Assembly: GCF_003946265.1 (NCBI RefSeq)
Contig: NZ_RHNO01000006.1
Span: forward strand, 62,001 to 126,000
Length of the DNA stretch: 64,000 bases
Origin: Levilactobacillus yonginensis
Lineage (GTDB): Bacteria > Bacillota > Bacilli > Lactobacillales > Lactobacillaceae
Reading direction: 5' to 3'
Made by a program: the position numbers and the translations under genes. A model generated the notes under the pieces. It ran no database searches. It was not told where the DNA came from and was given only the letters and a program-made list of their open reading frames with translations. Each line of letters begins with the position of its first letter. Within the stretch, counting starts at the first letter, position 1. Shown here piece by piece: positions 3,461 through 63,380 of the stretch.

Positions 3461-5083
3461 TTAACTCATGTGTAAATCACGCCGCCGGTAGCCGAACCAA
3501 CCGATTAGAACCAGTGCTAGCGCCAACCCAATCATCCAACTAAATGTGGTCCAGTTAACGTCGTGAATTGGGACTCGTGGCATCCAACCGGCCGGTGTCA
3601 GGTTTTTGACCCAGCCAGGAAGCTTCAGAAGACTGCCCATGTAGACGCTCACGAAGCCCAGTGCAAGGTACGCCCAACTCAGTGATTTCAGACGCGGCCA
3701 GCAGCCAACGAGTAACACACTCAACGCGAGAAATACCCAGATTTCAGGGAGTTGGGCAGCTACGGCTTGCCAAAATTCTGACGCACTAATGCCGTCTTTA
3801 ATGTGCGTCAGGCTGGCGTCACCCATGACAACAATACCTGCTAGGCCGCCCATGTAGGCCAGCGTGCTGGTGACAAAGGCCGTACCTACGTAACTGAATA
3901 GTAGGCGGGTACGACTCAATGGTCGTGCGTAGAGGGCTTCTAGCCAACCGCGGGTCTCATCGGTGTGCAATTTTAAAATCAATTGCATGCCAGGAATAAC
4001 GGAAACGGCGGCCATCACCACGGCCAACAGGGCAGTAAAGCTCACTAGGATGCTGTGGTTGGCCTCGTGGACCATGGTGGCACCAAAGACCTGTTGCATG
4101 GTCGGATTGGTCTTCAGGATGTCGCCAATGGTGTTGAAGACCGTCCCGTAGGCTGCACCAAAGATGATGATGCCAACCAGCCAACCAATCAGTACGTTAC
4201 GTTGCCGCCGCCAAATCAGAGAAATGGGACCGCGTAAGAAAACGGAGGCTTGTTTGCGGCCGGGACGGGTCGTGATGGCACCAGCCCCCAGGTCCCGGTG
4301 ACTATTGGCCCAGAAGGCAATGGCTAAAAGGATGAACGCCAGTCCTAAACTCAACCAGACAGGCTGCCAGGTAGGGTCATTGTAGGGGGCTAATTTTTCC
4401 ACCCACCCCAGTGGTGACCACCACGTCAGCTTGGGGTGCTGGACGTCGGTGACCATCCGGGCTAGGTAGCTCAGGCCAAACAACGTGTAAGCGAGGCCAG
4501 TGGCACTCGAGGAGTGGTCAGCGACCTGGGCGGTTATGAGGCCTAGCATGCCAAATAGCAGACCGGTGGCCGCTAATCCGATACCGATCAACCAATTACC
4601 TTGGGTGGTGGCGCCGGGCATGTTTGCGGCGGTCAATCCGGCACCGTAAAGAAGTCCCAACAGACCGTTGACTAAGACGAGCTCAATGGCCGCGGCTGAC
4701 AGTGGGGCTAACGTTCCCACCGCGTGTGCTCGTACGAGCTCCGTAATGCCTAAATCTTCTTCAGCCCGCGTTGCGTGGACACTCAGTGCGAGGTTCATTA
4801 CGACCTGAATCAGTCCCATGAACAGGAGCATCTCATTGGCAAAAATCTCGGCCGTGGTGACTTTGCCACTAAAGGAAAAGGCGCCAAACATGGCAACGAT
4901 ACCGGGGCTAGCCAACGTCCCTTTGATAGCGTTGATTTCAGTAGGAGTGCCGTAGATGCCTTCAAATTTCCAGGCAACGCTGGCCATTAGCGCGGCCAGA
5001 ATAAGAATCCACATGAGAATGCGAAACCGGTCCCGGCGTAAGTTTAACCGAACCAGTTGGCCAGTACGTCCATAACGAGACAT
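3461..5083 (-). CDS. ABC exporter permease (large ABC-2 type)
   Basis: 540 aa integral membrane protein. The start is ATG at 5083, 10 nt behind AAAGGAG and overlapping no other start. The sequence alternates long hydrophobic segments with short loops and looks like two tandem halves of six spans each, as in the permeases once annotated as exporters of polyketide antibiotics (COG3559-like). It should form the channel for the ATPase encoded just upstream, whose stop is only 5 bp away. The substrate is unknown; TetR control suggests a drug or toxic metabolite. The transcript ends at the terminator at 3139. Confidence 0.8.
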   Translation of the reverse strand: MSRYGRTGQLVRLNLRRDRFRILMWILILAALMASVAWKFEGIYGTPTEINAIKGTLASPGIVAMFGAFSFSGKVTTAEIFANEMLLFMGLIQVVMNLALSVHATRAEEDLGITELVRAHAVGTLAPLSAAAIELVLVNGLLGLLYGAGLTAANMPGATTQGNWLIGIGLAATGLLFGMLGLITAQVADHSSSATGLAYTLFGLSYLARMVTDVQHPKLTWWSPLGWVEKLAPYNDPTWQPVWLSLGLAFILLAIAFWANSHRDLGAGAITTRPGRKQASVFLRGPISLIWRRQRNVLIGWLVGIIIFGAAYGTVFNTIGDILKTNPTMQQVFGATMVHEANHSILVSFTALLAVVMAAVSVIPGMQLILKLHTDETRGWLEALYARPLSRTRLLFSYVGTAFVTSTLAYMGGLAGIVVMGDASLTHIKDGISASEFWQAVAAQLPEIWVFLALSVLLVGCWPRLKSLSWAYLALGFVSVYMGSLLKLPGWVKNLTPAGWMPRVPIHDVNWTTFSWMIGLALALVLIGWFGYRRRDLHMS

Positions 5084-7558: not shown

Positions 7559-8962
7559 ATGCAAACAACGACTCAACCAGAGAAGGTGCCACGGGAGAAC
7601 CTGATTGCCATCTTTGCGATTGCGCTGATGGCCTTCCTGGGCATCCTGGTCGAAACGTCAATGAACGTGGCGTTTCCAGCCCTGATGAAACAGATGCACG
7701 TGTCCCTGAACACCGTGCAGTGGATCACCACCGGTTATCTACTAATGGTAGCGTTACTGATGATTACCTCAGCGTTTTTAAAGCAACGTTTTACGAATAA
7801 ACAATTATTTGTGACCGCCGCGCTGGCGTTTATTTTAGGTGATTTAATTTGTGCGCTCGCAACTAATTTTCCTATTTTATTGCTTGGTCGCTTGATTCAA
7901 GCAGGGTGTGCTGGTTTGGCGATTCCCCTGATGTTTAACATCGTGGTTGAAAGTGTCCCACGGTCCCGACTGGGATTTTACATGGGCATGGCTGGTTTGA
8001 TTTTGATGATTGCACCAGCAAGTGGGCCGACGTTTGGTGGGGTGATGGTTTATTTAGCCAACTGGCGGCTGATCTTTTGGTCAACGATGCCGGTAGAAAT
8101 CATTCTCTTGTTGCTGGGGATGGGAGCCATCAAACAGTACGCACCAACGCAGAAAATTTGCTTCAACTGGGGCCAATTTATCTTATTAGCCGTGGCGTTC
8201 GTGAGTTTTACGCTGGGCGTTAACAGTCTGTCATCAGCCGGATTGGTGAGTTGGCAGTTTTTAGGTGGGGTCTTATTGGCCGTAGCGGCACTCCTGGGGT
8301 ATATCTGGATTTCTAAACGCAGTGAGCGTAAGCTCTTGAAGCTAGAAATCTTCAAGAATCCGGTCTTCACATACAGTTTCTTTGCCTACGTGATTCTGCA
8401 GTTCTGTAATATCGGAATCAACTTTGCGTTGCCTAACTATGCCCAAATCGTGGTAGGCGCGACATCACTGATTGGGGGCATGATGCTCCTACCCGGGAGT
8501 CTGATTACGGCGATCCTGCAACCCTGGTTTGGCCATTTACTTGATGAGCACGGTGCCCGGTTACCAATTTTACTGGGGAGTTGCCTATTCTTGATTGCCG
8601 CGCTGATGTTTACCTTGTTTGGTCAGGGACTTAGTGTGATTATGATTGCCGTTCTCTACATTATCTTCAGTATTGGCCGGTCGATGGCCTTCAGTAACAC
8701 GTTGACGAATGGTTTAAAGGAAGTCGACGTGAGTCAACGGGCGGATGCCAACGCCATTTACAACACTGGTCAACAGTTTGCCGGATCACTTGGGACCACG
8801 ATTCTGGCAGCATTGATGTCATCGGTTAAGGTATCGGGCATGTCCTACGCGCATGAAACGGCAATTGGGAGTCAGCTGGCATTTGGCCTGATCTTTATCC
8901 TCAGTGTGGTTAACTTTGGGTTTTACTTTATTGTGTTCCGGTATCAACGGACTGATAAGTAA
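7559..8962 (+). CDS. MFS drug efflux transporter, DHA2 (EmrB/QacA) type
   Basis: 467 aa from ATG 7559 (in-frame ATGs at 7496 and 7520 lack a better ribosome site). The protein starts with a short hydrophilic N-terminus, followed by about 14 hydrophobic spans. The segment VQWITTGYLLMVALLMITSA after the first span is the characteristic DHA2 motif, and LGRLIQAGCAGLAIPL is motif C-like. Similar lactobacillar proteins are annotated as LmrB/lincomycin-type multidrug pumps driven by proton motive force. It is a separate unit with its own terminator at 9122. Substrate unknown. Confidence 0.87.
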   Translation: MQTTTQPEKVPRENLIAIFAIALMAFLGILVETSMNVAFPALMKQMHVSLNTVQWITTGYLLMVALLMITSAFLKQRFTNKQLFVTAALAFILGDLICALATNFPILLLGRLIQAGCAGLAIPLMFNIVVESVPRSRLGFYMGMAGLILMIAPASGPTFGGVMVYLANWRLIFWSTMPVEIILLLLGMGAIKQYAPTQKICFNWGQFILLAVAFVSFTLGVNSLSSAGLVSWQFLGGVLLAVAALLGYIWISKRSERKLLKLEIFKNPVFTYSFFAYVILQFCNIGINFALPNYAQIVVGATSLIGGMMLLPGSLITAILQPWFGHLLDEHGARLPILLGSCLFLIAALMFTLFGQGLSVIMIAVLYIIFSIGRSMAFSNTLTNGLKEVDVSQRADANAIYNTGQQFAGSLGTTILAALMSSVKVSGMSYAHETAIGSQLAFGLIFILSVVNFGFYFIVFRYQRTDK

Positions 8963-15586: not shown

Positions 15587-15613
15587 GTTGTGTCACTGCT
15601 TGTGGTCATGGGT

Positions 15614-15798
15614 CACCGGTGGTCAGGGACTACGCCTGCTGTGGGGACCGCCTGCGGCCAAAGGGCGGTCCTCCGGCTCGACTTGAATCCCTGTTCAAGG
15701 TGCGAACAGAGCTTCAAGTTCGTCCCACGCTGTAGGTTGGCTTAAAATCGCCAGCCAACACCGTCGACACAGCTGACTCCGTCCCTGACCACCGGTGA
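15614..15798 (-). repeat. Type-1 structured element, copy 3
   Basis: Minus-strand reading: GTCAGGGACGGAGTCAGCTGTGTCG closes with CCCCACAGCAGGCGTAGTCCCTGAC. Inside are hairpins of the shared pattern GTTGGCTGGC..GCCAACCTAC, ACTTGAA..TTCAAGT and GGACCGCC..GGGCGGTCC. Follows the xpkA terminator. Confidence 0.85.
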
Positions 15799-21970: not shown

Positions 21971-22092
21971 AAGCGGAGGCGGCCAGGGGCGCCCTTGAAG
22001 ACACGTGGGGTTCGTAGCTTCAAAGCGAGCTAGAAGACCATACTTTGGTTGAAGCGTCCCCACGGCAGGTCCTGCCCCTGACCGCCGGAGTG
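21971..22092 (+). repeat. Type-1 structured element, short copy lacking hairpin 1
   Basis: 122 bp. Keeps the end stem GGCCAGGGGC..GCCCCTGACC, the TTGAAGACACG hairpin with CGTAGCTTCAA and the GTCCCCACGGCAGG junction, but the GTGTCGGTGGCGTT hairpin is missing. Lies past the greA terminator. Confidence 0.75.
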
Positions 22093-22127
22093 ACATTATT
22101 AGATTGCATTTAAAGAATCAACTAAAC

Positions 22128-22171
22128 AAAAAGCCGACTTAGAATTCGTCATCTTTCTAAGTCGGCTTTTT
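22128..22171. terminator. Terminator of greA (bidirectional)
   Basis: AAGCCGACTTAGAA pairs with TTCTAAGTCGGCTT, with T-runs on both strands; 17 bp after the greA stop. Confidence 0.9.
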
Positions 22172-22187
22172 GACTCGTATACTGTGT

Positions 22188-22676
22188 TTATGCTGTGGGG
22201 GCGGTGAGGCTGACCGTGAGAACTCGCACGTCGTAGCTGGCGTTGGGCGCCTGAATGGTGACCGTGTCGCCCGGTTGGTGGCCCAATAAGGCCTTCCCTA
22301 GCGGCGACACGCGAGTAATTTTGCCGGCTTCTAAATCGGCTTCTTGGGTACCGACTAGCTGGTAGGTGGCCTGGTCCTCATCGTCTAAGAAGGCGACGGT
22401 GACCCATTTACCGAGTTCAACCACGTTGTTAGCAGTGGGGTCCACGACCTTGGCATACTGAAGTTGCTTATTGAAGAAACGTAGCTGACTTTCTAGGTGG
22501 CGGAGGTCCCGCTTCGCCGCTGAGTATTCGGCGTTTTCTGAAAGGTCCCCGTGCGCTCGCGCTTCTGCTAAAATTGCAATTTTTTCTGGTCGGTCGGCTT
22601 CAAGCGCGGCAATTTTGGCCTGTAACTCCTGGTAACCGGCGGCCGTGATGGGGTTGAAGTCCCGTGAATCTGCCAT
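22188..22676 (-). CDS. greA: Transcription elongation factor GreA
   Basis: 162 aa from ATG 22676. The N-terminal coiled coil carries EARAHGDLSENAEYSAAKRDL, with the acidic tip (D and E) that enters the RNA polymerase secondary channel to trigger transcript cleavage. The C-terminal globular part has VELGKWVTV and SPLGKALLGHQPGDTV, as in GreA/GreB. Length is normal. It may be a second Gre paralogue, since lactobacilli often have more than one. Monocistronic with a clear terminator. Confidence 0.9.
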   Translation of the reverse strand: MADSRDFNPITAAGYQELQAKIAALEADRPEKIAILAEARAHGDLSENAEYSAAKRDLRHLESQLRFFNKQLQYAKVVDPTANNVVELGKWVTVAFLDDEDQATYQLVGTQEADLEAGKITRVSPLGKALLGHQPGDTVTIQAPNASYDVRVLTVSLTAPTA

Positions 22677-22753
22677 CGAATCACTCCATCCATTTCAAGA
22701 TTTAGGTCTAGTTTACAGCAATTTGGTTACGAAAGGAAAAGGGGGCGATTAAT

Positions 22754-23152
22754 ATGGCGTTTTCTGGTCGATATTGGGTGTGCCAAGCGAGCTGTGGTCT
22801 CATTGTGATTGGTTTCCTGCTTTTGTTAGGTCACTGGGATTATGTTACGGGCCAGTTCCTCACGCATTTTTCGGTGTGGGATGGCTATCTAATGGTGAGT
22901 TGGGTGTGCTTTCCGTGGGCTAAATGGGTCGTTTTGATGGATACCCGGCGCGTGCAAGCGCCTACCATTCACCGACATCAACGGGAGCAGCCGGCCTCAG
23001 TCTATGAAGAAATGTGTCAACCACGGGGCCCCGTTGCTGCTCCCAAACAGACGTTACGCTGGTACTGGCGAGGGTTGCTGGATTTTCTACTTGCCATCCT
23101 AGCACCTATCATTTTAGGAGGGTTTGTCATTTATTCTCTTTGGCACAATTAA
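22754..23152 (+). CDS. Small membrane protein of unknown function
   Basis: 132 aa from ATG 22754, divergent from greA; the upstream purine-rich AAAGGAAAAGGGGG can serve as ribosome site. Three hydrophobic stretches (about 10-28, 42-60 and 108-130) with a hydrophilic loop carrying HRHQREQPASVYEEM between the second and third. I recognise no family. No terminator directly follows. Confidence 0.6.
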   Translation: MAFSGRYWVCQASCGLIVIGFLLLLGHWDYVTGQFLTHFSVWDGYLMVSWVCFPWAKWVVLMDTRRVQAPTIHRHQREQPASVYEEMCQPRGPVAAPKQTLRWYWRGLLDFLLAILAPIILGGFVIYSLWHN

Positions 23153-23528
23153 ATTGTACTGTTTTCCCCTACCTTAACGTTAAATAATTGACGTTTTCGC
23201 TACTTAGCAACTGATTAGCGGGGAACATGTTAAAGTAGTGACAGTTGGAAGGAATCAGTTTTACGGCAACTGATTTTGCAGGTCAATCGGTTAAAGTATA
23301 TGTGTTTGACAGTGGCTAACCGTTGACGCTAGTAATTCCATGAATCTAATCCAAAGGTTGAACTGGTAGTCTATCTAGTGGGCAATTAACGAAGTTAGTA
23401 AAGTAACGCGTTACCAATTGGCTGAAGAGTAAGTGGTGGTTATTGGAGAACCCGAGGGGATTAGACGTGTTAGGTTAGAGCTTGGGGGAGTGCTAATTTG
23501 ACAGAATAGAAGTATATAATCCACTTAG

Positions 23529-23560
23529 GAAGAGGCTGCCCGGGGTAGCTTCTTTTTTTG
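23529..23560 (+). terminator. Hairpin with T-run before the kinase operon
   Basis: GAAGAGGCTGCC with GGTAGCTTC and seven T. No gene ends nearby (370 bp from 23152). The rest of 23153-23605 shows no gene. Confidence 0.5.
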
Positions 23561-23605
23561 GTCGTAGAAATCCCACTGATTCCCAAAATTTCGTGATAAT
23601 AACGA

Positions 23606-23634
23606 TTGCAAACAACTAGCTTTCAGGTTACATT
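23606..23634 (+). promoter_or_regulatory. Likely promoter of the LytTR/kinase operon
   Basis: TTGCAA and TACATT with 17 bp spacing; the TACATTAAT word resembles LytTR-type boxes. A weak cre-like sequence (11 of 14 positions) overlaps the -35. Confidence 0.45.
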
Positions 23635-23681
23635 AATGGGTGATAGGTATTACTACGGTTTAGTTAAGAGGGTGGTACAAA

Positions 23682-24437
23682 ATGCTAGCGGTTTATCTTT
23701 GCGAGGATAATCCAGAACAATTGAAGCATTACACCGACGTTGTTCAGCGGTATATCATGATTAATGACTACGATATGCAGGTTCGGTTGGCAACACCGAG
23801 TCCTAAAGAGTTGTTGGCTAATTTGACGGCTAACCCACCGGAGTACGCGCTGTTTTTCCTGGATATTGAATTTCCGGCGGAAGATACCACGGGATTGGAA
23901 ACGGCGATTACGATTCGGCAGCGCTTAGGCTTTGCGGAAATCGTGTTTGTGACGACGCACTCGGAGATGGCACTGCTCACATTTGAACGGAAGGTCGAGC
24001 CCATGGACTTCATCGTGAAGGACTTAGGCCGTGCTCAAATCGACCAAAAATTACGAGAAAATATCGATTACGGCTATGAACGCTACACAAATTACTTAGG
24101 AAATACGGAAAATTTATTTAGTTATACGATTGGTGGTCGCCAATTCAGTATGCCGATGGGCGACGTGTACTTCGTTGCCACCTCTGAGATGGCCCATAAG
24201 GTTACGGTGCACGCTGCCAATCAGTTGGTTGAGTTCCCTGGTTTTTTGAAGGATATTGCCGATGACTACCCAGAACTCTACCGCACGGATAAGAGTTTTT
24301 TAGTCAACCTGGACAACGTTAGCGGACTGGACACCACCAATCGGCGGCTGATTTTTCCCAATGGGGACGAGACGGATGTGGCGACACGGCGCTTTCATGA
24401 GGTTAAAACGTTGGTTCAGAAGCACTTAAAGGCCTGA
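23682..24437 (+). CDS. LytTR-family response regulator (AgrA/PlnC-like)
   Basis: 251 aa from ATG 23682. Residues 1-130 are a receiver domain with CEDN acidic pocket near residues 7-10 and phospho-acceptor D61 in FFLDIEF, plus the Thr of TTHSE and the Lys of FIVKD. Residues 145-250 are a LytTR DNA-binding domain with VYFVATSEMAHKVTVHA, FPGFLKDIADDYPELYRTDKSFLVNLDNV and RRLIFPNGDE. Such regulators control bacteriocin or quorum-sensing genes. First gene of an operon with two unusual AgrC-like kinases. No autoinducer precursor is seen nearby. Confidence 0.9.
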   Translation: MLAVYLCEDNPEQLKHYTDVVQRYIMINDYDMQVRLATPSPKELLANLTANPPEYALFFLDIEFPAEDTTGLETAITIRQRLGFAEIVFVTTHSEMALLTFERKVEPMDFIVKDLGRAQIDQKLRENIDYGYERYTNYLGNTENLFSYTIGGRQFSMPMGDVYFVATSEMAHKVTVHAANQLVEFPGFLKDIADDYPELYRTDKSFLVNLDNVSGLDTTNRRLIFPNGDETDVATRRFHEVKTLVQKHLKA

Positions 24438-24449
24438 GAGGGTGACACG

Positions 24450-25766
24450 ATGCACATCTTTGATACACATTTTTGGATAAACTTTGTGTTGGCCATGACG
24501 ATGCAGTGGTTTTGGACGCTGTGGATTGGGGTTATTCGCCCACGTAACTGGAAATTACCGCTGAAATGGATTGGGTGGGCGTTGATTCCGGCCGTCATTG
24601 GGACTTCCTGGTCGTTGGCGATTCCCCCCGTCTCCGCCTTACTTTACTTAATTCATCATCGACCGAAGATGTCGCTGATATTTGTTAACGCAACGATTGT
24701 GATTTTTCTGGTGGTCGTGTTAGTTAACGATGTGGTCCGCGCGGTAACCATTGAATTATTTGGCTTTGTTAGCAGTCAGACCGCTCCGGTCATTACGGGC
24801 CGGCTAGTTTTCCAAGTTCTGGTCTATACGCTCTGTTCATTGGCGGTTTCTGGAATGAGGATTCAACCCGGGAACTTGGAAGAGTTGGCGTTTAGTCGCA
24901 AGGAACAGTGGACGGTCATGGCATTGCTAGCAAGTATGAGTGTCTTGGCGCAGTTGTCGACGGTTATCATTCACCGGCTGGCAATTACCCACGCGATGAT
25001 GACCTTTGCGCTGAGCATTGAACTCGTCATGATCCTGTTGATCAGTACGAGTCTGTTCTTCTTTTTACAGAGCTTTTTTCACCGGCAACGCGTTAAGGCA
25101 GGCTATCAGGAATTACTCTTGCGGTCACGGTATGACCGGCGAATCTCTGATCAGGTCCGGGCCATTCGGCAGTTTAAGCAGCAGTATCAAAAGCAGATGT
25201 TGCGGTTGGGCGATTACTTGGATACAGCGGATTATGATGGGTTGACAGCCTACTTTCAAACGTTGGATTCACGCTGGCATGCGACCAGTCACGTGACCGA
25301 TCTGGAGGAGGATGGGTTACAACGACTGAGTGACCCACCGTTGAAGAGTTTATTGTTTCAAAAGATTTTGGCGGCTCAGGCTAAGGGTCGGGATCTGCGC
25401 CTGGAGATTCCCGATGAGGTTCGAACTTTTCCAATTGATAGTCTCCTCTTGATTCGCATTGTGGGGATCTTGCTGGACAATGCCTTGGAATCAGCGCCTG
25501 TTGCGGGTCAACAGGATATTCACTTTGCCATTCTGACGTATCCTGGGTCTGTTGAAATTTCTGTAGCCAATCCGGTTTCACAGGAGGACCCACCGCAGAT
25601 CAACCGGTTCTTGACGACTGGGTACACGACGAAGGGGACTGGCCATGGTCAAGGACTGAAGACCGTGCAGGAAATCGTCATGCAGACCGACAATGCGTCC
25701 CTGCAGATTGCGTTGAAGCGAGGGATGCTGTACTTTACGCTGATTCTAACCAAGGAAGGCGGGTGA
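24450..25766 (+). CDS. AgrC-like kinase with intact ATPase but no phospho-acceptor His
   Basis: 438 aa, 12 bp after the response regulator, ATG at 24450 behind GAGAGG. About the first 210 residues are membrane spans, as in AgrC/PlnB sensors. The dimerisation helix reads RQFKQQYQKQMLRLGDYL where the family has FRHDYQN: Lys243 stands in the position of the His. The GHKL domain looks complete, with the N box GILLDNALESA (Asn344) and the G box TKGTGHGQGLKTVQE (396-407). So it can bind ATP but cannot autophosphorylate on a conserved His. The next gene has the reverse defect, suggesting phosphorylation across a heterodimer (inference). Confidence 0.88.
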   Translation: MHIFDTHFWINFVLAMTMQWFWTLWIGVIRPRNWKLPLKWIGWALIPAVIGTSWSLAIPPVSALLYLIHHRPKMSLIFVNATIVIFLVVVLVNDVVRAVTIELFGFVSSQTAPVITGRLVFQVLVYTLCSLAVSGMRIQPGNLEELAFSRKEQWTVMALLASMSVLAQLSTVIIHRLAITHAMMTFALSIELVMILLISTSLFFFLQSFFHRQRVKAGYQELLLRSRYDRRISDQVRAIRQFKQQYQKQMLRLGDYLDTADYDGLTAYFQTLDSRWHATSHVTDLEEDGLQRLSDPPLKSLLFQKILAAQAKGRDLRLEIPDEVRTFPIDSLLLIRIVGILLDNALESAPVAGQQDIHFAILTYPGSVEISVANPVSQEDPPQINRFLTTGYTTKGTGHGQGLKTVQEIVMQTDNASLQIALKRGMLYFTLILTKEGG

Positions 25767-25770
25767 GAAC

Positions 25771-27105
25771 GTGATTCAGGTCAGTGCGTTGAGTTTTTCA
25801 CTATCAGAGTTTTCACTGGTCTTTTGGTTTGTTTACTTTCAATATTATTGGTTCCCCCAACTGCGGTTTAAAAAGAACTTTTCGTTGTACTGCGCGTTGG
25901 TGGCCGCGGGTTATACGTTGATTGATTTTATTAATCCATTTACTTTTAACAGCTCGCTGTTGGGTGCCCTTTCCGTGGTCATTATGTTGGGTGTCGAGCT
26001 GGGCCTGATTGGCTATCAACGGAAATGGGCGTACCTACCCGCGTTTATTGAAGTTTCCATTTTGGCGTATTTATTAATTGAATTCATTGATATGGTGGTC
26101 ATTGTGACCACGATTTATCTGACAAACATGGAATTTGCCACCAGCCTGTGGGGGACATTGTCTGAAATTGTGATTGATAATATTATCTTTGCATTGATCA
26201 TTATGGGGCTGTGGATGACCCGTGCCCCAATGGAAAATCTGATTGAATCCATGCTTGGTCGTTCGCTTGAGTACATGTTTTTGACGTTTATGGCGACTTT
26301 GGCGGTTGTGTACATTCTATTCGAATACTCCTTACAAATGCTGCAGCGGTCGGATCAATACCTGGTTTTTTTGGCGGGAATTGCTGGGACGTTGCTAGTG
26401 GGGTTGTCTCTGAGCACGTACATGTTGATGCAGACTCACTTGCAAGAGGAACACACGCAGCTTCAACGGCAACAACAGGCGTTTAGGGAGCAGTATACGA
26501 CCGAGTTGAATCGGCAAATGAGTGTGGTTAAGAAGTTTAGTCATGACTACCAGAATATGTTGCTGGGACTGGGGGGTTACCTGGAAGATCAAGACTATGA
26601 GGGGTTTCGCCAGCTATACATCGATATTCGCTCTGGTTGGGCGACCAGTAATGCGGCTGAGTTGACCATTGATGACTTGGAAAACGTGCCGGGGACCAGT
26701 CTACGTTTTCGGTTATATCACAACTACCTATTAGCAAGACGGGCGGGCGTTCAACTCTTCGTGAAGGTTTCAGACCCATTGACGGCAACCGTTGCCGCGC
26801 TTAAGCAAATGGGGACAGTGATTGATGAACTGACGCCGGAAATACTGCCGATCATTAAACAGGTGCCGCCAGCCATGATTACGCTGGAGCTGAGTGAGAC
26901 GTCGCGACTGTTACGGTTGCAGTTGACATTTCCGAGTCCGCCTAATGCACGAGTCGACGGTCACAACCGAATTATCTCTGACTTAGACACATTAGATTTT
27001 TCTAATGCATTGGGAATGATTCCCCAACAAGGAGCTAGCACATTACAACTGAAATTCCACTGGGGTCAGCTGATTGTGACATTGCCGAAGGGTTCTGGGC
27101 AATAG
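25771..27105 (+). CDS. AgrC-like protein with phospho-acceptor His but degenerate ATPase
   Basis: 444 aa, GTG start at 25771, 4 bp after the first kinase. The N-terminal ~215 residues are membrane spans. The dimerisation helix VVKKFSHDYQNMLLGLGGYL carries the canonical His258. The following domain aligns with the first kinase through GTSLRFRLYHNYLLARRAG, but the N box is replaced by VIDELTPEILP and no Gly-rich G box is present. ATP binding is therefore unlikely. It looks like the phospho-acceptor partner of the preceding kinase, relaying to the LytTR regulator. Paralogy of the two is clear from the matching helix. Ligand unknown. Confidence 0.85.
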   Translation: MIQVSALSFSLSEFSLVFWFVYFQYYWFPQLRFKKNFSLYCALVAAGYTLIDFINPFTFNSSLLGALSVVIMLGVELGLIGYQRKWAYLPAFIEVSILAYLLIEFIDMVVIVTTIYLTNMEFATSLWGTLSEIVIDNIIFALIIMGLWMTRAPMENLIESMLGRSLEYMFLTFMATLAVVYILFEYSLQMLQRSDQYLVFLAGIAGTLLVGLSLSTYMLMQTHLQEEHTQLQRQQQAFREQYTTELNRQMSVVKKFSHDYQNMLLGLGGYLEDQDYEGFRQLYIDIRSGWATSNAAELTIDDLENVPGTSLRFRLYHNYLLARRAGVQLFVKVSDPLTATVAALKQMGTVIDELTPEILPIIKQVPPAMITLELSETSRLLRLQLTFPSPPNARVDGHNRIISDLDTLDFSNALGMIPQQGASTLQLKFHWGQLIVTLPKGSGQ

Positions 27106-27182
27106 ACCGGGGCTTGGAGTATTCACAAAGTCCCACTGATGAATAGTTTATAGTTCGCCCCTAACAGTTGAAAATTATTTAC

Positions 27183-27196
27183 TGAAAACGCTTGCA
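27183..27196 (+). promoter_or_regulatory. cre box (CcpA site), perfect consensus
   Basis: TGAAAACGCTTGCA matches TGWAARCGYTWNCW at all 14 positions and overlaps the -35 of the promoter at 27192, a position expected for carbon-catabolite repression. Confidence 0.8.
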
Positions 27197-27219
27197 ATCT
27201 TATACCCATCTGATATACT
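27192..27219 (+). promoter_or_regulatory. Promoter of candidate small RNA
   Basis: TTGCAA, 16 bp, TATACT preceded by TG. The downstream 250 bp contain no convincing gene. Confidence 0.7.
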
Positions 27220-27225
27220 AAGACT

Positions 27226-27500
27226 TGTAATACCAATCAATCTTTCAGGGAAGTTGTAAAATAAAGTGATTTTATAAGTTCCCGACTTTGTGAAATAGCT
27301 CTCATTTAAAAGATAAGAGTTATCTTTACAGCACGATTAGTTTTCGTTAACTGAACGTGTTTGAATTGCTCAATAACTACATATTGAGATTAATAACTGA
27401 ATTCGAGTGAACAGCGTTTTCCTGACTACAAACTGTGATGATGTTGAATGCTCTAATGATGTTAGTGGGAGTCGGAGAGTGGTTACTCCGACTTTTTTTG
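27226..27500 (+). ncRNA. Candidate CcpA-regulated small RNA
   Basis: About 270 nt between the promoter at 27192 and the terminator at 27470. Near the 5' end GGGAAGTTGTAAAAT folds back on ATTTTATAAGTTCCC (27249-27284). No open frame has a ribosome site. With a perfect cre box on the promoter, transcription should fall when preferred sugar is present. Not matched to a known family; the ends are estimates. Confidence 0.6.
27470..27500 (+). terminator. Terminator of the candidate small RNA
   Basis: AGTCGGAG pairs with CTCCGACT and is followed by seven T. Confidence 0.88.
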
Positions 27501-27540
27501 TGTCTAAAATTAGTTTTCAAGCAGGGATGATGTTGTGCTC

Positions 27541-27727
27541 CGCCTCCGGCCGGCAGGGCGGGCGCCTGCTGTGGGGACCGCCTGCAGCCAAAGTACGGGC
27601 TTCCGGCGCGACTTGAAACCTCGGAAGTTCGCCGAGTTTCCAAGCTCGTCCCGTGGCGTAGACTCGGAAAGTCACCGAGTTAACGCCACCGACACAGCCG
27701 CCGCCCGCCCTGCCAACCTGCGGCTAC
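27541..27727 (-). repeat. Type-1 structured element, copy 5
   Basis: Minus-strand reading: GGCAGGGCGGGCGG..GGCTGTGTCGG closes with CCCCACAGCAGGCGCCCGCCC. Hairpin GTGGCGTTAACTCGG with CCGAGTCTACGCCAC, then GAGCTTGGAAACTCGG with CCGAGGTTTCAAGT. The closing stem differs from copy 9 but pairs fully. Confidence 0.88.
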
Positions 27728-27906
27728 AATTGTGGATAATTGATATGTAGGTTTTGAAAAAGCTGGGGGAACCACAGGGTGCTGGGTTAGGGATTTACCG
27801 GAAACAGTTGCAACGTACTATATAGTTTTGAATTGCCATTTGTAGGATAGTGGCCCATTGCTTGTATAATTTCGGACTGCCAGTAACTGAAAGTGAATCA
27901 AATATC

Positions 27907-27965
27907 AGCATCTAAAAAGGCGCGTGCCGCTAGGGGATTGAGACCCAGCGGCACGCGCCTTTTTT
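27907..27965. terminator. Bidirectional terminator of the 31-aa peptide gene
   Basis: AAAAAGGCGCGTGCCGCT pairs with AGCGGCACGCGCCTTTTTT, 18 bp. The minus-strand small gene ends inside its upstream T-run. Confidence 0.93.
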
Positions 27966-28059
27966 ACACAATATTCAGTAAATTCAAAATTCCCCAGACC
28001 AATAAGCTGGCTAGTAAAACCAATAGGATAAGGATTGCCCATTTCTGTGGCCAACGCAT
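27964..28059 (-). CDS. 31-aa single-span membrane peptide
   Basis: ATG at 28059 (a second in-frame ATG lies at 28062) 5 nt behind AGGGGGG. The protein begins MRWPQKWAILILLVLLAS, continues LLVWGILNLLNIV and ends at TAA 27964, directly on the terminator. A positively charged start followed by one hydrophobic helix suggests an inner-membrane micropeptide. Strong ribosome site and terminator support expression. Too short for automatic gene callers. Function unknown; a toxin-like or accessory role is possible. Confidence 0.7.
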   Translation of the reverse strand: MRWPQKWAILILLVLLASLLVWGILNLLNIV

Positions 28060-28156
28060 CATATCCCCCCCTAAGCCATTCAACTGATTTTAGTATACGG
28101 GATAAAAATGATTAACGGTTACAATCGTCTAAATCGTGGAAAAATTGACGATTACG

Positions 28157-29047
28157 CTAATTTGTGTGAAATGTGGCGAAATCAGCGGGTACGGGCGCCG
28201 TCACGGTGGTTAAGGAACCATCCAGTGTCCACGGCTGGGGGAAGTCTAAACGCCAACAGTGTAGCCGTAAACGGTCCTGACTGGGGTCTGCATAGAGGGG
28301 GTCGCCAACCAGTGGATGCCCGGCATTAGCTAAGTGGACTCGGAGTTGATGGGTCCGGCCAGTCTCTAGCCACAACTTGACTAGCGTGGCGCCAGGCTGG
28401 TGGTTGACGGCTTCGTAGTGGGTCACGGCGGGTTGCGCGTGGACACCATTGACTAGGCGCTTGCGTTTGTCATTGGGATCACGACCGATGGGACCGGTAA
28501 ACGTGCCCTGACCCTGTAAAGTCCCCCGAACCCAGGCCAAGTAGGTCCGCTGGACGCGCTTTTCAGCGATATTGCGCACCATCACGGGGACCACTGCGGG
28601 GGTCTTGGTCATTAGGAGGGCGCCGGTCGTTTCCTGATCGAGGCGGCTTAGAATGTAAGGACCTGGTTCGTCGGGACCCAAGTAGGCCGCCACGTGATTC
28701 AGCGTGGTACCACGTTCTGCTGGTTGATTGGGGTGGGTTTTACTGCCCCGGGTTTTGTTGATAACGAGCAGGTCGGCGGTTTCGTAGAGCACGCTGACGG
28801 TGGCCGCACTGTCAGGGAGCACATCGGGGAATGGTTCCTTGAAATCAGAGGGAACAAAGGTGAGCTGGACGGTTTCGCCAGCGTAAACGGGTTGATTCAT
28901 GGTCCGGTAGCTGCCATTAACCAACACACGCTGGTGAATACGTAGGTCGTGGACGAGATGACTAGGGAGTAACCAGGCCGTCAATAATGCTCTGAGCGGC
29001 ATGGGTGCTTGGGTTGCGGGGATAGTTTGAGTATAGGTCCATTGCAT
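28157..29047 (-). CDS. RluA/RluD-family pseudouridine synthase
   Basis: 296 aa from ATG 29047 with AAAGGAG upstream; upstream in-frame codons lack a ribosome site. An S4-like N-terminus is weak. The catalytic block PYILSRLDQETTGALLMTK holds the nucleophile Asp of the RLD motif; VNKTRGSKTHPNQP precedes it, and LVKLWLETGRTHQLRVHLANAGHPLVGDPLY is the family's last block. Modifies uridines in rRNA or tRNA; the site is not predictable by eye. Confidence 0.9.
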   Translation of the reverse strand: MQWTYTQTIPATQAPMPLRALLTAWLLPSHLVHDLRIHQRVLVNGSYRTMNQPVYAGETVQLTFVPSDFKEPFPDVLPDSAATVSVLYETADLLVINKTRGSKTHPNQPAERGTTLNHVAAYLGPDEPGPYILSRLDQETTGALLMTKTPAVVPVMVRNIAEKRVQRTYLAWVRGTLQGQGTFTGPIGRDPNDKRKRLVNGVHAQPAVTHYEAVNHQPGATLVKLWLETGRTHQLRVHLANAGHPLVGDPLYADPSQDRLRLHCWRLDFPQPWTLDGSLTTVTAPVPADFATFHTN

Positions 29048-29285
29048 GGTGGCGCTCCTTTCCGTGACAGGGGAATTCCGAATCACAAGCTGGTGGACAA
29101 TTGAACGATGAAAGCTTTTAAAGGTTGGTAACACAGTGTAACCGGCCGCCTTATTGGCTGCTAGATATGGTCTCAGGCGACCTCTCGGTTTACACAGAAA
29201 TTTTCTGCAGACTAAAATTGCAGTCAGCCCATCATGAGGAATATGAATAAATCCGTCGTCGGTTATTATGTTAAACGGCAATCAG

Positions 29286-29463
29286 AGCCGGAGGAGGTCA
29301 GGGATGTAGCCGGCCGTGACGGTGGTGTTAACTGGTGTTTTGTGCCAGTTTACAGCACGGGCGACTTTGGAGACACGGGGTCTTCGTGGCTTCAAATCGA
29401 GCGAGAAGCCCGCTCTTTGGCTGAAGCGTCCCCACGGCAGGCGGAATCCCTGGCCGCCGGAGT
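29286..29463 (+). repeat. Type-1 structured element, copy 6
   Basis: Starts AGCCGGAGGAGGTCAGGGATG and ends ATCCCTGGCCGCCGGAG. Hairpin GTGGTGTTAACTGG with CCAGTTTACAGCAC; second GACTTTGGAGACACG with CGTGGCTTCAAATCGAG. Confidence 0.85.
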
Positions 29464-29498
29464 GCAGCCAATGTATCATTCAACCTTTAGTGGGCAAC

Positions 29499-33444: not shown

Positions 33445-33638
33445 GTTGTCTCCGGTTGCCGGGGCGAGACTCTGCTGTGGGGACCACCTGCGGCCTGAGA
33501 ACCGGTCCTCCGGTTCGACTTGGAACCACACCTAGACCGCGTGTTTCCAAGCTCGTCCCATGGTGTAGATCCGGGGCAGAGCACCCGAACCAACGCCATC
33601 GACACAGCTGATCCTCGCCCCGACAACCTCCAACGTTA
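33445..33638 (-). repeat. Type-1 structured element, copy 7
   Basis: Minus strand: GTCGGGGCGAGGATCAGCTGTG closes with CCCCACAGCAGAGTCTCGCCCCGGC. Inner hairpins ATGGCGTTGGTTCGGG with CCCCGGATCTACACCAT and GAGCTTGGAAACACGCGG with a CCGCGTGTTTCC-type partner. Inside the oppA 3' UTR. Confidence 0.87.
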
Positions 33639-61409: not shown

Positions 61410-63380
61410 ATGTCCAAGAGTGTTAGCGCGCAAGACTTGTTCAAGTTAGTAGCGCTGTCGCAACCATTAGCCAGCGACGGTCAGGTGTTTTTCGTGGAAA
61501 ATGGTGTCGATCAAGCTAGTAATGGGTACGTTTCTCAAATTAAACGACTCAGTGTTACTGGTGGTACGCAGGATGTGGCGGTTAATGGTCGGTTGAACCT
61601 ACAGCCCACCGTTGCCGGTGAGAGCCTGTACTACACCGCCACCGTGGACCAGGCCAAGGCACAGCTCTTTCGGGTACCGCTGACCGGTGGCGAACCAACG
61701 GCCGTTACGACGAGTACGCCCAATGAGGCCGTTAACACGGTGCTAGCCGCTGCGGATGGTACCAGCATTTTCTTCAAGACCACCCAGACGGCGGAACGGC
61801 CTAAGTTACCAAATACCGAAGCGTTTCCGCAGCCCCGGCACGTTGAGAATTTAATCAACAAGGCTGACGGCTATGGGTGGTTCCCTTTGGACGTGGTGTA
61901 CCGACTACGCCGCTATCAACCGAGCACCGGCGTCGTTGAAGAAATCTTTCAACAGGGTCACGATTTCGACCTGACCTCGGTGAGTGCTGACGGTCGTTAC
62001 GTTTCCTATTTAGTTGATGATCGACCAGCGGATGATACGGACTTTTCCCGGGGCGTCAGCGTGTTAGACGTTCAAACGGGAGAGACGGTCGATTTGACCA
62101 CCACACTGCCTAAGGCCCGTTTCTCAGACGCCACGTTATCGCCAGATGGCCGCCGGGTGGCCCTAGTGGGTGACGACGGCTCCTTTGGCCGCCATACCGT
62201 GGCGAACCTTTACCTAGTCAACCGGGAGAGCGGGGAATTAGTCAACCGCACCGCTGAATTAGACGCTGACTTGGTGCCAGACTTTGCTGGTGACTTTGTG
62301 CAACATCCTAGTGGCAAATTAGTTCGGTGGCTAACTGACGAGGACGTGGTATTTGCCGCTGCCTTTCACGGACGTTCCCAACTTTACGTGGCGAATGCGA
62401 CCGACCTGCATTTGATTGACGATACTGCGCGTCAAATCGTGGACTTCGACGTGGTCGATGCCCAACACATCGTTGCCGCTGTGTCATATCAGGATAAGCC
62501 GAGCGAACTCTTACGATTGTCCGTCAAGACGGGTGAGGAACGCGTGTTATACGATCCGAACGCGGCCTATGAGGACACCCATGAGTTTGCCCACGCCCAA
62601 CGGTTTGATTTTGAATCGGACGATGGCCAGGCCTTGGAAGGTTGGTACTTACCAGCCCAAACGCAGGCGGCTAAGGAACCGGTATTGCTGTACGTTCACG
62701 GGGGGCCACACGCCAACTATGGCGAAACGTTCTTCTATGAATTTCAGGTACACGCAAGTCGGGGGTTCGGGGTCGTCTTCTTCAATCCCCGAGGGTCAAC
62801 CAGTTATGGGCAAGCGTTTGAAGACGACGTGAACGGCCATTATGGTGAAAATGATTACGATGATGTCATGAAGGGATTAGATGTGGCTTTGCAACGCTTC
62901 CCACAGTTAGATGCCAGTCGGCAGTACATTGCTGGTGGCTCCTATGGTGGGTTCATGACGACCTGGGCGGTGGGGCATACCAAGCGGTTTGCCGCAGCGG
63001 TTGCCCAACGGGCCGTAACGAATTGGATCAGCTTGTTTGGTATTAGTGATATTGGCTTTTACTTCAATCCGGAAGAACTGGGTATCGATCTCTTTGCCAA
63101 AGGTGGCCTAGAGTCTTACTGGAAGCAGTCACCATTAGCTTACGCGCAGAACGTGACGACGCCGATTCGGTTGCTCCACGGTGAATGGGACATGCGTTGC
63201 CCTATCAGCCAGTCAGAGGAATTCTTTACGGCCATTAAACGCAATGGTGTGGATGCAGACTTTTTGCGGTACCCGCAGAGTTTCCACGGGATTTCACGGA
63301 GCGGATTTCCTAGCTTGCGGATTCAACGGATCGACGATATGACCGAATGGTTTGTTGCCCATCCTTCTGTTCAAAAATAA
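61410..63380 (+). CDS. S9 family prolyl oligopeptidase / acylaminoacyl peptidase
   Basis: 656 aa from ATG 61410, 8 nt behind AGGAG. Residues 1-390 are a beta-propeller of repeated strands; residues 400-656 an alpha/beta hydrolase: YVHGGPHANYGETF (oxyanion), QYIAGGSYGGFMTTW (nucleophile Ser), HGEWDMRCPISQ (Asp) and YPQSFHGISRSG (His). Cytoplasmic; trims short or acylated peptides, joining PepF and Opp in peptide use. Repeat copy 11 follows 9 bp after the stop. Confidence 0.92.
   Translation: MSKSVSAQDLFKLVALSQPLASDGQVFFVENGVDQASNGYVSQIKRLSVTGGTQDVAVNGRLNLQPTVAGESLYYTATVDQAKAQLFRVPLTGGEPTAVTTSTPNEAVNTVLAAADGTSIFFKTTQTAERPKLPNTEAFPQPRHVENLINKADGYGWFPLDVVYRLRRYQPSTGVVEEIFQQGHDFDLTSVSADGRYVSYLVDDRPADDTDFSRGVSVLDVQTGETVDLTTTLPKARFSDATLSPDGRRVALVGDDGSFGRHTVANLYLVNRESGELVNRTAELDADLVPDFAGDFVQHPSGKLVRWLTDEDVVFAAAFHGRSQLYVANATDLHLIDDTARQIVDFDVVDAQHIVAAVSYQDKPSELLRLSVKTGEERVLYDPNAAYEDTHEFAHAQRFDFESDDGQALEGWYLPAQTQAAKEPVLLYVHGGPHANYGETFFYEFQVHASRGFGVVFFNPRGSTSYGQAFEDDVNGHYGENDYDDVMKGLDVALQRFPQLDASRQYIAGGSYGGFMTTWAVGHTKRFAAAVAQRAVTNWISLFGISDIGFYFNPEELGIDLFAKGGLESYWKQSPLAYAQNVTTPIRLLHGEWDMRCPISQSEEFFTAIKRNGVDADFLRYPQSFHGISRSGFPSLRIQRIDDMTEWFVAHPSVQK

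Follow-up and report, generated by a model that had tools for sequence, protein, structure and literature searches.

Two tandem AgrC-like membrane proteins with complementary defects as a probable, naturally split sensor histidine kinase in Levilactobacillus

The stretch of DNA analysed here, hereafter the window, comprises 64,000 nucleotides (nt) of Levilactobacillus yonginensis (contig NZ_RHNO01000006.1 of assembly GCF_003946265.1, forward-strand positions 62,001 to 126,000). At positions 23682-27105, it carries three open, co-directional genes encoding an AgrA-like response regulator (R) and two AgrC-like membrane proteins (A and B), with gaps of 12 nt between R and A and 4 nt between A and B. 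Textbook sensor kinases are self-contained homodimers. In this locus, A has kept the ATP-binding motifs and lost the His acceptor, while B has kept the acceptor and lost the ATP site. Thus, as far as the sequences tell, the two functions of a histidine kinase lie on separate proteins. We consider it probable that R-A-B works as one sensor histidine kinase that has been split in nature, a reading carried by reciprocal motif loss, co-conservation of the pair, purifying selection and the finding of no other AgrC-type ATPase in the genome.

Our comparison covers 34 loci, namely the window and the locus from 33 other genomes of the genus. B was found in 34 of the 35 Levilactobacillus genomes searched; the exception (G008) is 72% complete, gave neither a B nor an R match, and was handled as missing data. 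A and B stand in tandem in all 34 near-complete genomes, with A full length in every one and the first B copy (B1) full length in 33. R is present in 33 loci, the contig of the remaining one (L059) beginning past R, and is intact (at least 240 amino acids, aa) in 31. With mechanically chosen starts, a 4-nt spacer lies between A and B in 21 loci and in 7 others the genes share 4 nt, which suggests coupled translation. The initial annotation described complementary half-kinases beside one LytTR regulator, and this arrangement holds across the genus: nowhere in the 34 loci are the partners separated and each bifunctional. A search of named genomes with A recovered 20 loci, of which 18 belong to Levilactobacillus, one to a 'Lactobacillus sp.' and one to an 'uncultured Lactobacillus' metagenome-assembled genome, the closest A being that of L. 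tongjiangensis (95%).

The A protein of the window matches the Pfam families HATPase_c_5 (1.4e-9) and HATPase_c, and HATPase families were matched by 31/31 of the A proteins scanned, out of 34. The N box DNAxE is present in 34/34 A and 0/41 B proteins. Likewise, the G box KGx(1-3)HGxGL is kept in all 34 A, reading K395-G396 ... H399-G400-x-G402-L403 in the window. Moreover, A has the AgrC-type (HPK10) features of a multi-helix membrane sensor, helices of the dimerisation and histidine phosphotransfer (DHp) domain and an AgrC-like catalytic and ATP-binding (CA) domain. What it lacks is the His in F-x-HDYxN: neither F-x-HD[YF]-x-N nor HDxxN occurs in any of the 34 A, and, in an alignment to the solved AgrC of S. 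aureus, FRHDYVN falls opposite the A consensus f-k-q-t-y-q-k. The acceptor position is occupied by Gln in 24 A, and by Arg or His in five copies each. The full N and G boxes had been recognized by the initial annotation, which named Lys243 as the replaced residue; our alignment gives Gln244 instead, Lys243 lying one residue upstream, opposite Ser257 of B. The five His-bearing copies (L056, L058, L060, L062 and L081; four in one clade, one elsewhere in the tree) have Asn or Thr, never Asp, as the next residue, and the downstream Asn is missing in all of them. Beyond residue 205, just one His is common to the 34 A proteins, namely H399 of the G box.

Protein B presents the opposite picture, and the motif counts across 34 A and 41 B bear out the opposite defects proposed for the two paralogues. 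HDYQN, within F-x-HD[YF]-x-N, occurs in 41/41 B copies with His258 invariant, and FSHDYQN of B aligns with FRHDYVN of AgrC. B thus has the acceptor of an AgrC-type kinase and misses both boxes, as had been noticed. No Pfam family was matched at E 0.01 by any of the 37 B proteins scanned, out of 41, and a loose GxG[LIM] pattern was matched by one of the 41 C-termini. The NCBIfam AgrC model matches both A and B; in B the match covers only model positions 51-254 of 414 and ends ahead of the ATP-binding part. HDYQN also fits the HE/DxxN/T phosphatase motif as given in PMC3591291, making a phosphatase activity of B putative. In 7/34 loci (L080 to L086), a second B (B2) follows B1 beside a single A. 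All B2 copies have HDYQN and lack the N box, and they fall at two separate places in the tree.

By sequence profile, the best relative of both A and B in the Protein Data Bank (PDB) is the solved S. aureus AgrC. In AlphaFold models, the CA domain of A superimposes on that of AgrC (4bxi) with a template modelling (TM) score of 0.85 at 28% identity, and the C-terminus of B does so with a TM score of 0.72, a root-mean-square deviation of 2.8 and 8% identity. Near the place of the 11-residue helix that A has beyond the G box, the B model shows a helix of 5 residues only. We read the C-terminus of B as a scaffold whose predicted fold is kept without an ATP site.

The ratio of non-synonymous to synonymous substitution rates (dN/dS) was summarized as medians over 12-18 usable pairs of 19 hand-chosen close species pairs. 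Median dN/dS for A was 0.041 in the sensor, 0.027 in the DHp and 0.038 in the CA domain, and for B 0.041 in the sensor, 0.017 in the DHp and 0.058 in the pseudo-CA domain. Strong purifying selection hence acts on all six domains, the pseudo-CA domain of B included, and is tightest on the DHp domain of B. Mean identity to the window is 87% for R; 71, 72 and 65% for the sensor, DHp and CA domains of A; and 62, 84 and 54% for the transmembrane sensor, DHp and pseudo-CA domains of B1. The DHp domain is therefore the most conserved part of B and has the lowest dN/dS, a pattern of constraint that fits a division of labour.

A rapidly built tree of 95 kinases groups the A-type and the B-type proteins into one clade each (support 100 each). 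Of the proteins from outside the genus, L093 is the nearest; it groups with A and B (support 98), on a long branch and with no branching order settled. It is also the best match to B outside the genus (9.5e-18) in 301 genomes of the family, 15 of them of the genus, with at most five candidates scored in each. L093 is a single intact kinase that has HDFQN and both boxes and stands in R-to-kinase order, and no second kinase match was found in the fetched stretch. We sampled 18 loci outside the genus and counted kinases of at least 300 aa (n = 20), omitting L091, which offers only an open reading frame (ORF) of 236 residues. Fifteen loci have one such kinase, L100 has two and L101 three. HD[YF]xN and the N box are present in 20/20 of these proteins, and a recognizable G-box segment in 18/20. 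The two without it are a 364-residue protein of L100 and a 401-residue ORF of L104, whose G box is located in an overlapping short ORF. The sampled outside relatives are complete and most of their loci have one kinase, in agreement with a split at a later time. The simplest history would be that one complete AgrC-type kinase was duplicated and that the copies reciprocally lost functions on the stem of the genus, before Levilactobacillus diversified.

In R, residues E8, D9, D61 and T91 are invariant in 31/31 proteins of at least 240 aa, Asp61 being the predicted phospho-acceptor. R is the only receiver-LytTR protein of the genome; the open frames that hold the other two LytTR matches have 153 and 156 codons. 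A genome search with A retrieved only A, B and a weak match (2.4e-4) to a DcuS-like kinase. The PF14501 matches above cut-off were A, the DcuS-like kinase, which has an adjacent regulator gene, and a HisKA-type kinase, both kinase assignments being judgements by eye. Neither the search with A nor the PF14501 profile found an AgrC-type ATPase besides A in the genome. As A is the sole AgrC-type ATPase found and R the sole receiver-LytTR protein, only A could charge B, and only B could serve R, within this family.

Based on these observations, we infer that A and B pair as a membrane heterodimer via their helical dimerization domains. The CA domain of A would bind ATP and phosphorylate His258 of B in trans, a direction suggested by an A without acceptor and a B without ATP site. 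From phosphorylated B, the phosphate would then move on to R at Asp61, and the LytTR domain of R would switch target promoters. B, alone or as a B-B dimer, may in turn dephosphorylate R through its HDxxN motif, so that output would be set by the A:B ratio and by both sensors. In the seven genomes with a second B, one catalytic A would be available per two acceptor B proteins. More tentatively, and with less than even probability in our judgement, the locus could be a genus-defining modular receptor kinase in which A serves B1 or both B1 and B2, the signals being read by whichever heterodimer is formed, and R drives the flanking structured RNAs described below with no pheromone loop.

The initial annotation went further and saw an obligate trans-phosphorylating pair acting as an AND gate between two membrane sensors. 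The case for an obligate pairing is weaker in the 5/34 genomes whose A carries a His without the rest of the motif (HN or HT). An AND gate of two signals is unsupported and remains speculation: needing both proteins differs from needing both signals, and the AgrC precedent speaks against it, as one autoinducing peptide per AgrC dimer suffices for activation according to a review (PMC3673130). The label quorum-sensing-like is likewise unsupported. A LytTR regulator is present; no AgrB was found above cut-off in the genome, the one sub-threshold match scoring 17.3 bits where 23 was required. The reported absence of a nearby peptide gene stands within limits. Frames of at least 20 codons were scanned in about 650 nt 5' of R and 350 nt 3' of the last B, and some short frames do recur among species, none of them a credible AgrD-like precursor; a precursor gene at a distance may exist. 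Upstream, the frames that recur most often belong to the end of a neighbouring gene, U. Another frame, of 24 residues with a TTG start and with similar frames in 13 further species, is located in an RNA hairpin block. Two minus-strand TTG frames downstream, with counterparts in 21 and 22 other species, run opposite the conserved promoter and RNA, and we judge them to be by-products of DNA conservation.

Several observations weigh against a split kinase. The five A copies with His at the acceptor position might self-phosphorylate, and the stretch of A from N box to G box is no better conserved than other parts of the protein (61% mean identity versus 65-72% elsewhere). The R gene of L058 is broken into two parts with about 1.3 kb between them, and that of L086 into two overlapping ORFs; about 2 kb lie between R and A in L061; and B1 of L082 is in two ORFs. 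These apparently broken loci may mean that the system is dispensable in some strains, or they may be assembly errors. The extra DNA inside R of L058 and between R and A of L061 has an insertion-like appearance. Partial kinases are also not limited to Levilactobacillus, given the G-box-less protein of L100, which may be a further partial kinase or else a duplicate that was truncated. This 364-residue AgrC-type protein lies near an intact close copy (3703-5049 and 7715-8809 of that locus, minus strand). Finally, the models of A and B are single chains of modest confidence, with a mean predicted local distance difference test (pLDDT) score of 71.0 for B and 63.5 for A, the DHp domain of the latter mostly at 39-50.

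These observations leave room for other explanations. One is that B draws phosphate from R, as a receptor-linked phosphatase or as a phospho-sink, and that R would be phosphorylated by small-molecule donors or another kinase, with A as an ATP-dependent allosteric regulator of B. The phosphatase-like motif of B and the lost acceptor of A are both compatible with it. However, it leaves unexplained why all the ATP-site motifs checked in A are kept in 34/34 loci beside an invariant acceptor in B, and the genome yielded neither another receiver-LytTR protein nor another AgrC-type ATPase; we regard this explanation as unlikely. Somewhat less likely still is a scheme of two homodimers, one of A and one of B, with unconventional chemistry, in which A labels another of its own residues or B binds ATP in an altered pocket. 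The five His-bearing A copies would suit it, as would a C-terminus of B that is predicted to keep a CA-like fold under purifying selection. Against this, the only His shared by all A beyond residue 205 sits within the G box, and B lacks the N box in 41/41 copies and any Pfam family in 37/37 scanned. The apparent breaks in R (two loci) and B1 (one locus) could also be taken as signs that A and B are decaying duplicates in an operon on its way out. We reject this possibility as highly improbable in view of the median dN/dS of 0.017-0.058 in six domains and the retention of the locus, with invariant complementary motifs, in 34/34 near-complete genomes.

Split kinases as such are already known, with biochemical precedent in CheA3/CheA4 of Rhodobacter sphaeroides (PMC3591291, PMC6829392). 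As appears to be the case for A and B, ATP use and His lie on two proteins in that system, neither of which can finish the reaction alone, and the His-bearing partner also holds the phosphatase role (PMC3591291). Unlike A/B, CheA3/CheA4 is a divided CheA from a cytoplasmic chemotaxis cluster in which whole domains are missing. A and B are full-length multi-helix membrane proteins in which both folds are predicted to be kept and the losses are at the motif level. The kinase and regulator families are, by sequence and fold, those of S. aureus AgrC/AgrA (6e52, 4bxi), where AgrC subunits are reported to cross-phosphorylate (PMC3673130). However, AgrC of S. aureus is a complete kinase in itself and has AgrB and AgrD as neighbours, whereas here the kinase comes as two proteins in the order R-A-B, in a genome with no AgrB above cut-off. 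Other AgrC-type loci of Lactobacillaceae, such as L093, share a related regulator and kinase, and in L093 also the R-to-kinase order; they differ from R-A-B in that L093 has one intact kinase rather than two reciprocally defective ones. In Corynebacterium, a ChrS pseudokinase forms a heterodimer with HrrS in vivo and alters output (PMC9491836). There too a kinase without CA function pairs with its paralogue, as we propose for B with A. Nevertheless, the ChrS pseudokinase arose by a frameshift in laboratory evolution and HrrS is an active kinase, so that no reciprocal complementation is involved (PMC9491836).

Among the matches listed in a search of open-licence literature, which leaves most subscription papers outside and cannot prove that the pair is unpublished, there was no paper on the A-B pair. 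Two full-length AgrC-type membrane proteins are most likely a new form of split kinase, judged by sequence. PMC3591291 estimates that 1.7% of HisKA proteins are possible split bifunctional kinases, counting HisKA-domain proteins without HATPase. Since B matches no Pfam family and that survey is based on HisKA, pairs of the A/B type may have been missed. The same source derives ultrasensitivity and bistability for split kinases, on which A/B would also bear, as it would on the evolution of signal integration after duplication. In 34/34 near-complete genomes, a single receptor kinase has apparently been parted by evolution into two membrane proteins, each of full length and with reciprocal defects, which would make the pair a natural complementation experiment for trans-phosphorylation, and one that is simple to test because Levilactobacillus comprises food species. 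The parts of the locus are collected in Table 1.

Table 1. Positions in the window of the R-A-B genes, their key sites and the flanking candidate elements.
Feature	Position	Strand	Basis
R: AgrA-like response regulator, receiver and LytTR domains, 251 aa	23682..24437	+	Pfam Response_reg and LytTR above cut-off
A: AgrC-like membrane protein, 438 aa, putative catalytic half	24450..25766	+	HATPase matches, 4bxi fold, site counts
A, Gln244 codon at the position of the AgrC phospho-acceptor His	25179..25181	+	Alignment to B and AgrC
A, N box, D343-N344-A345-L346-E347	25476..25490	+	DNAxE in 34/34 A
A, G box, K395 to L403	25632..25658	+	KGx(1-3)HGxGL in 34/34 A
B: AgrC-like membrane protein, 444 aa, putative acceptor half, degenerate CA domain	25771..27105	+	HDYQN in 41/41
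B, His258 codon, predicted phospho-acceptor, FSHDYQN	26542..26544	+	Opposite AgrC FRHDYVN; invariant
B, pseudo-CA domain, predicted fold kept, N and G boxes lost	26689..27102	+	4bxi match; dN/dS
sRNA2, candidate non-coding RNA 3' of B, about 275 nt with terminator	27225..27499	+	34/34 loci; covariation
sRNA2 promoter-like region: cre-like TGAAAACGCTTGCA, -35-like TTGCAA, -10-like TATACT	27183..27219	+	Cross-species conservation
sRNA1, candidate non-coding RNA 5' of R, approximate ends	23240..23560	+	Conserved blocks, predicted hairpins
ACGT-N9-GACGTTTTCGC conserved element 5' of sRNA1, speculative R site	23177..23200	+	Present in most species shown

Two conserved candidate RNAs, here called sRNA1 and sRNA2, flank the operon; control by R, as of an RNAIII-like output, would be putative. 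sRNA2, with its promoter-like sequence and terminator, was found 3' of the last B in 34/34 loci. Covariation analysis of 30 of these 34 sequences showed two-sided changes in 18/38 predicted pairs, with 94.7% of cells pairing, and 0/500 shuffles reached the observed values. By DNA search, sRNA2 was detected in 6/6 sampled Levilactobacillus genomes and in 0/145 other genomes of the family. In its upstream region, which we take to contain a cre site and a promoter, the cre-like TGAAAACGCTTGCA overlaps the -35-like TTGCAA. sRNA2 is possibly an output of the R-A-B system, and possibly just a neighbour of it. An inverted repeat, TTCACAAAGT ... ACTTTGTGAA (27122-27131 and 27285-27294), is kept in many species, with one arm directly past B and the other within sRNA2.

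On the other side of the operon, sRNA1 lies between U and R and has a terminator and a hairpin with a G-rich loop, in which the sequence CTTGGGGGAGTG hardly varies. Its CTTGGGGGAGTGC block is found in 32/33 upstream stretches, and farther upstream in the 33rd (L077). Support for the predicted structure is weaker than for sRNA2, with two-sided changes in 7/40 pairs (21 sequences). DNA search detected sRNA1 in 5/6 sampled Levilactobacillus genomes, plus one 31-base match among the 145 others. No Rfam match overlapped either RNA, at E up to 5 in the window and up to 1 in six other loci. Still farther upstream, the ACGT-N9-GACGTTTTCGC element might, speculatively, be a binding site of R. A genome scan for this element, with at most one mismatch, returned 15 matches versus 2 for a reversed control pattern. 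Of its two perfect matches, one belongs to the R-A-B locus and the second falls within an ORF. The scan did not establish a regulon of R, and none is claimed.

Gene U (22754-23152), 5' of the locus, encodes a small membrane-like protein of 132 aa that is found in 29/34 stretches, some of which end early, and that had no match in the family scans of the window proteins. PADLOC gave no match, leaving a defence-system reading of the region unsupported. Dispersed repeats of about 56-109 nt were observed at 15601-15690, 21984-22092, 27531-27620, 29356-29464 and 33450-33505, and the three within 21984-29464 lie outside the main genes.

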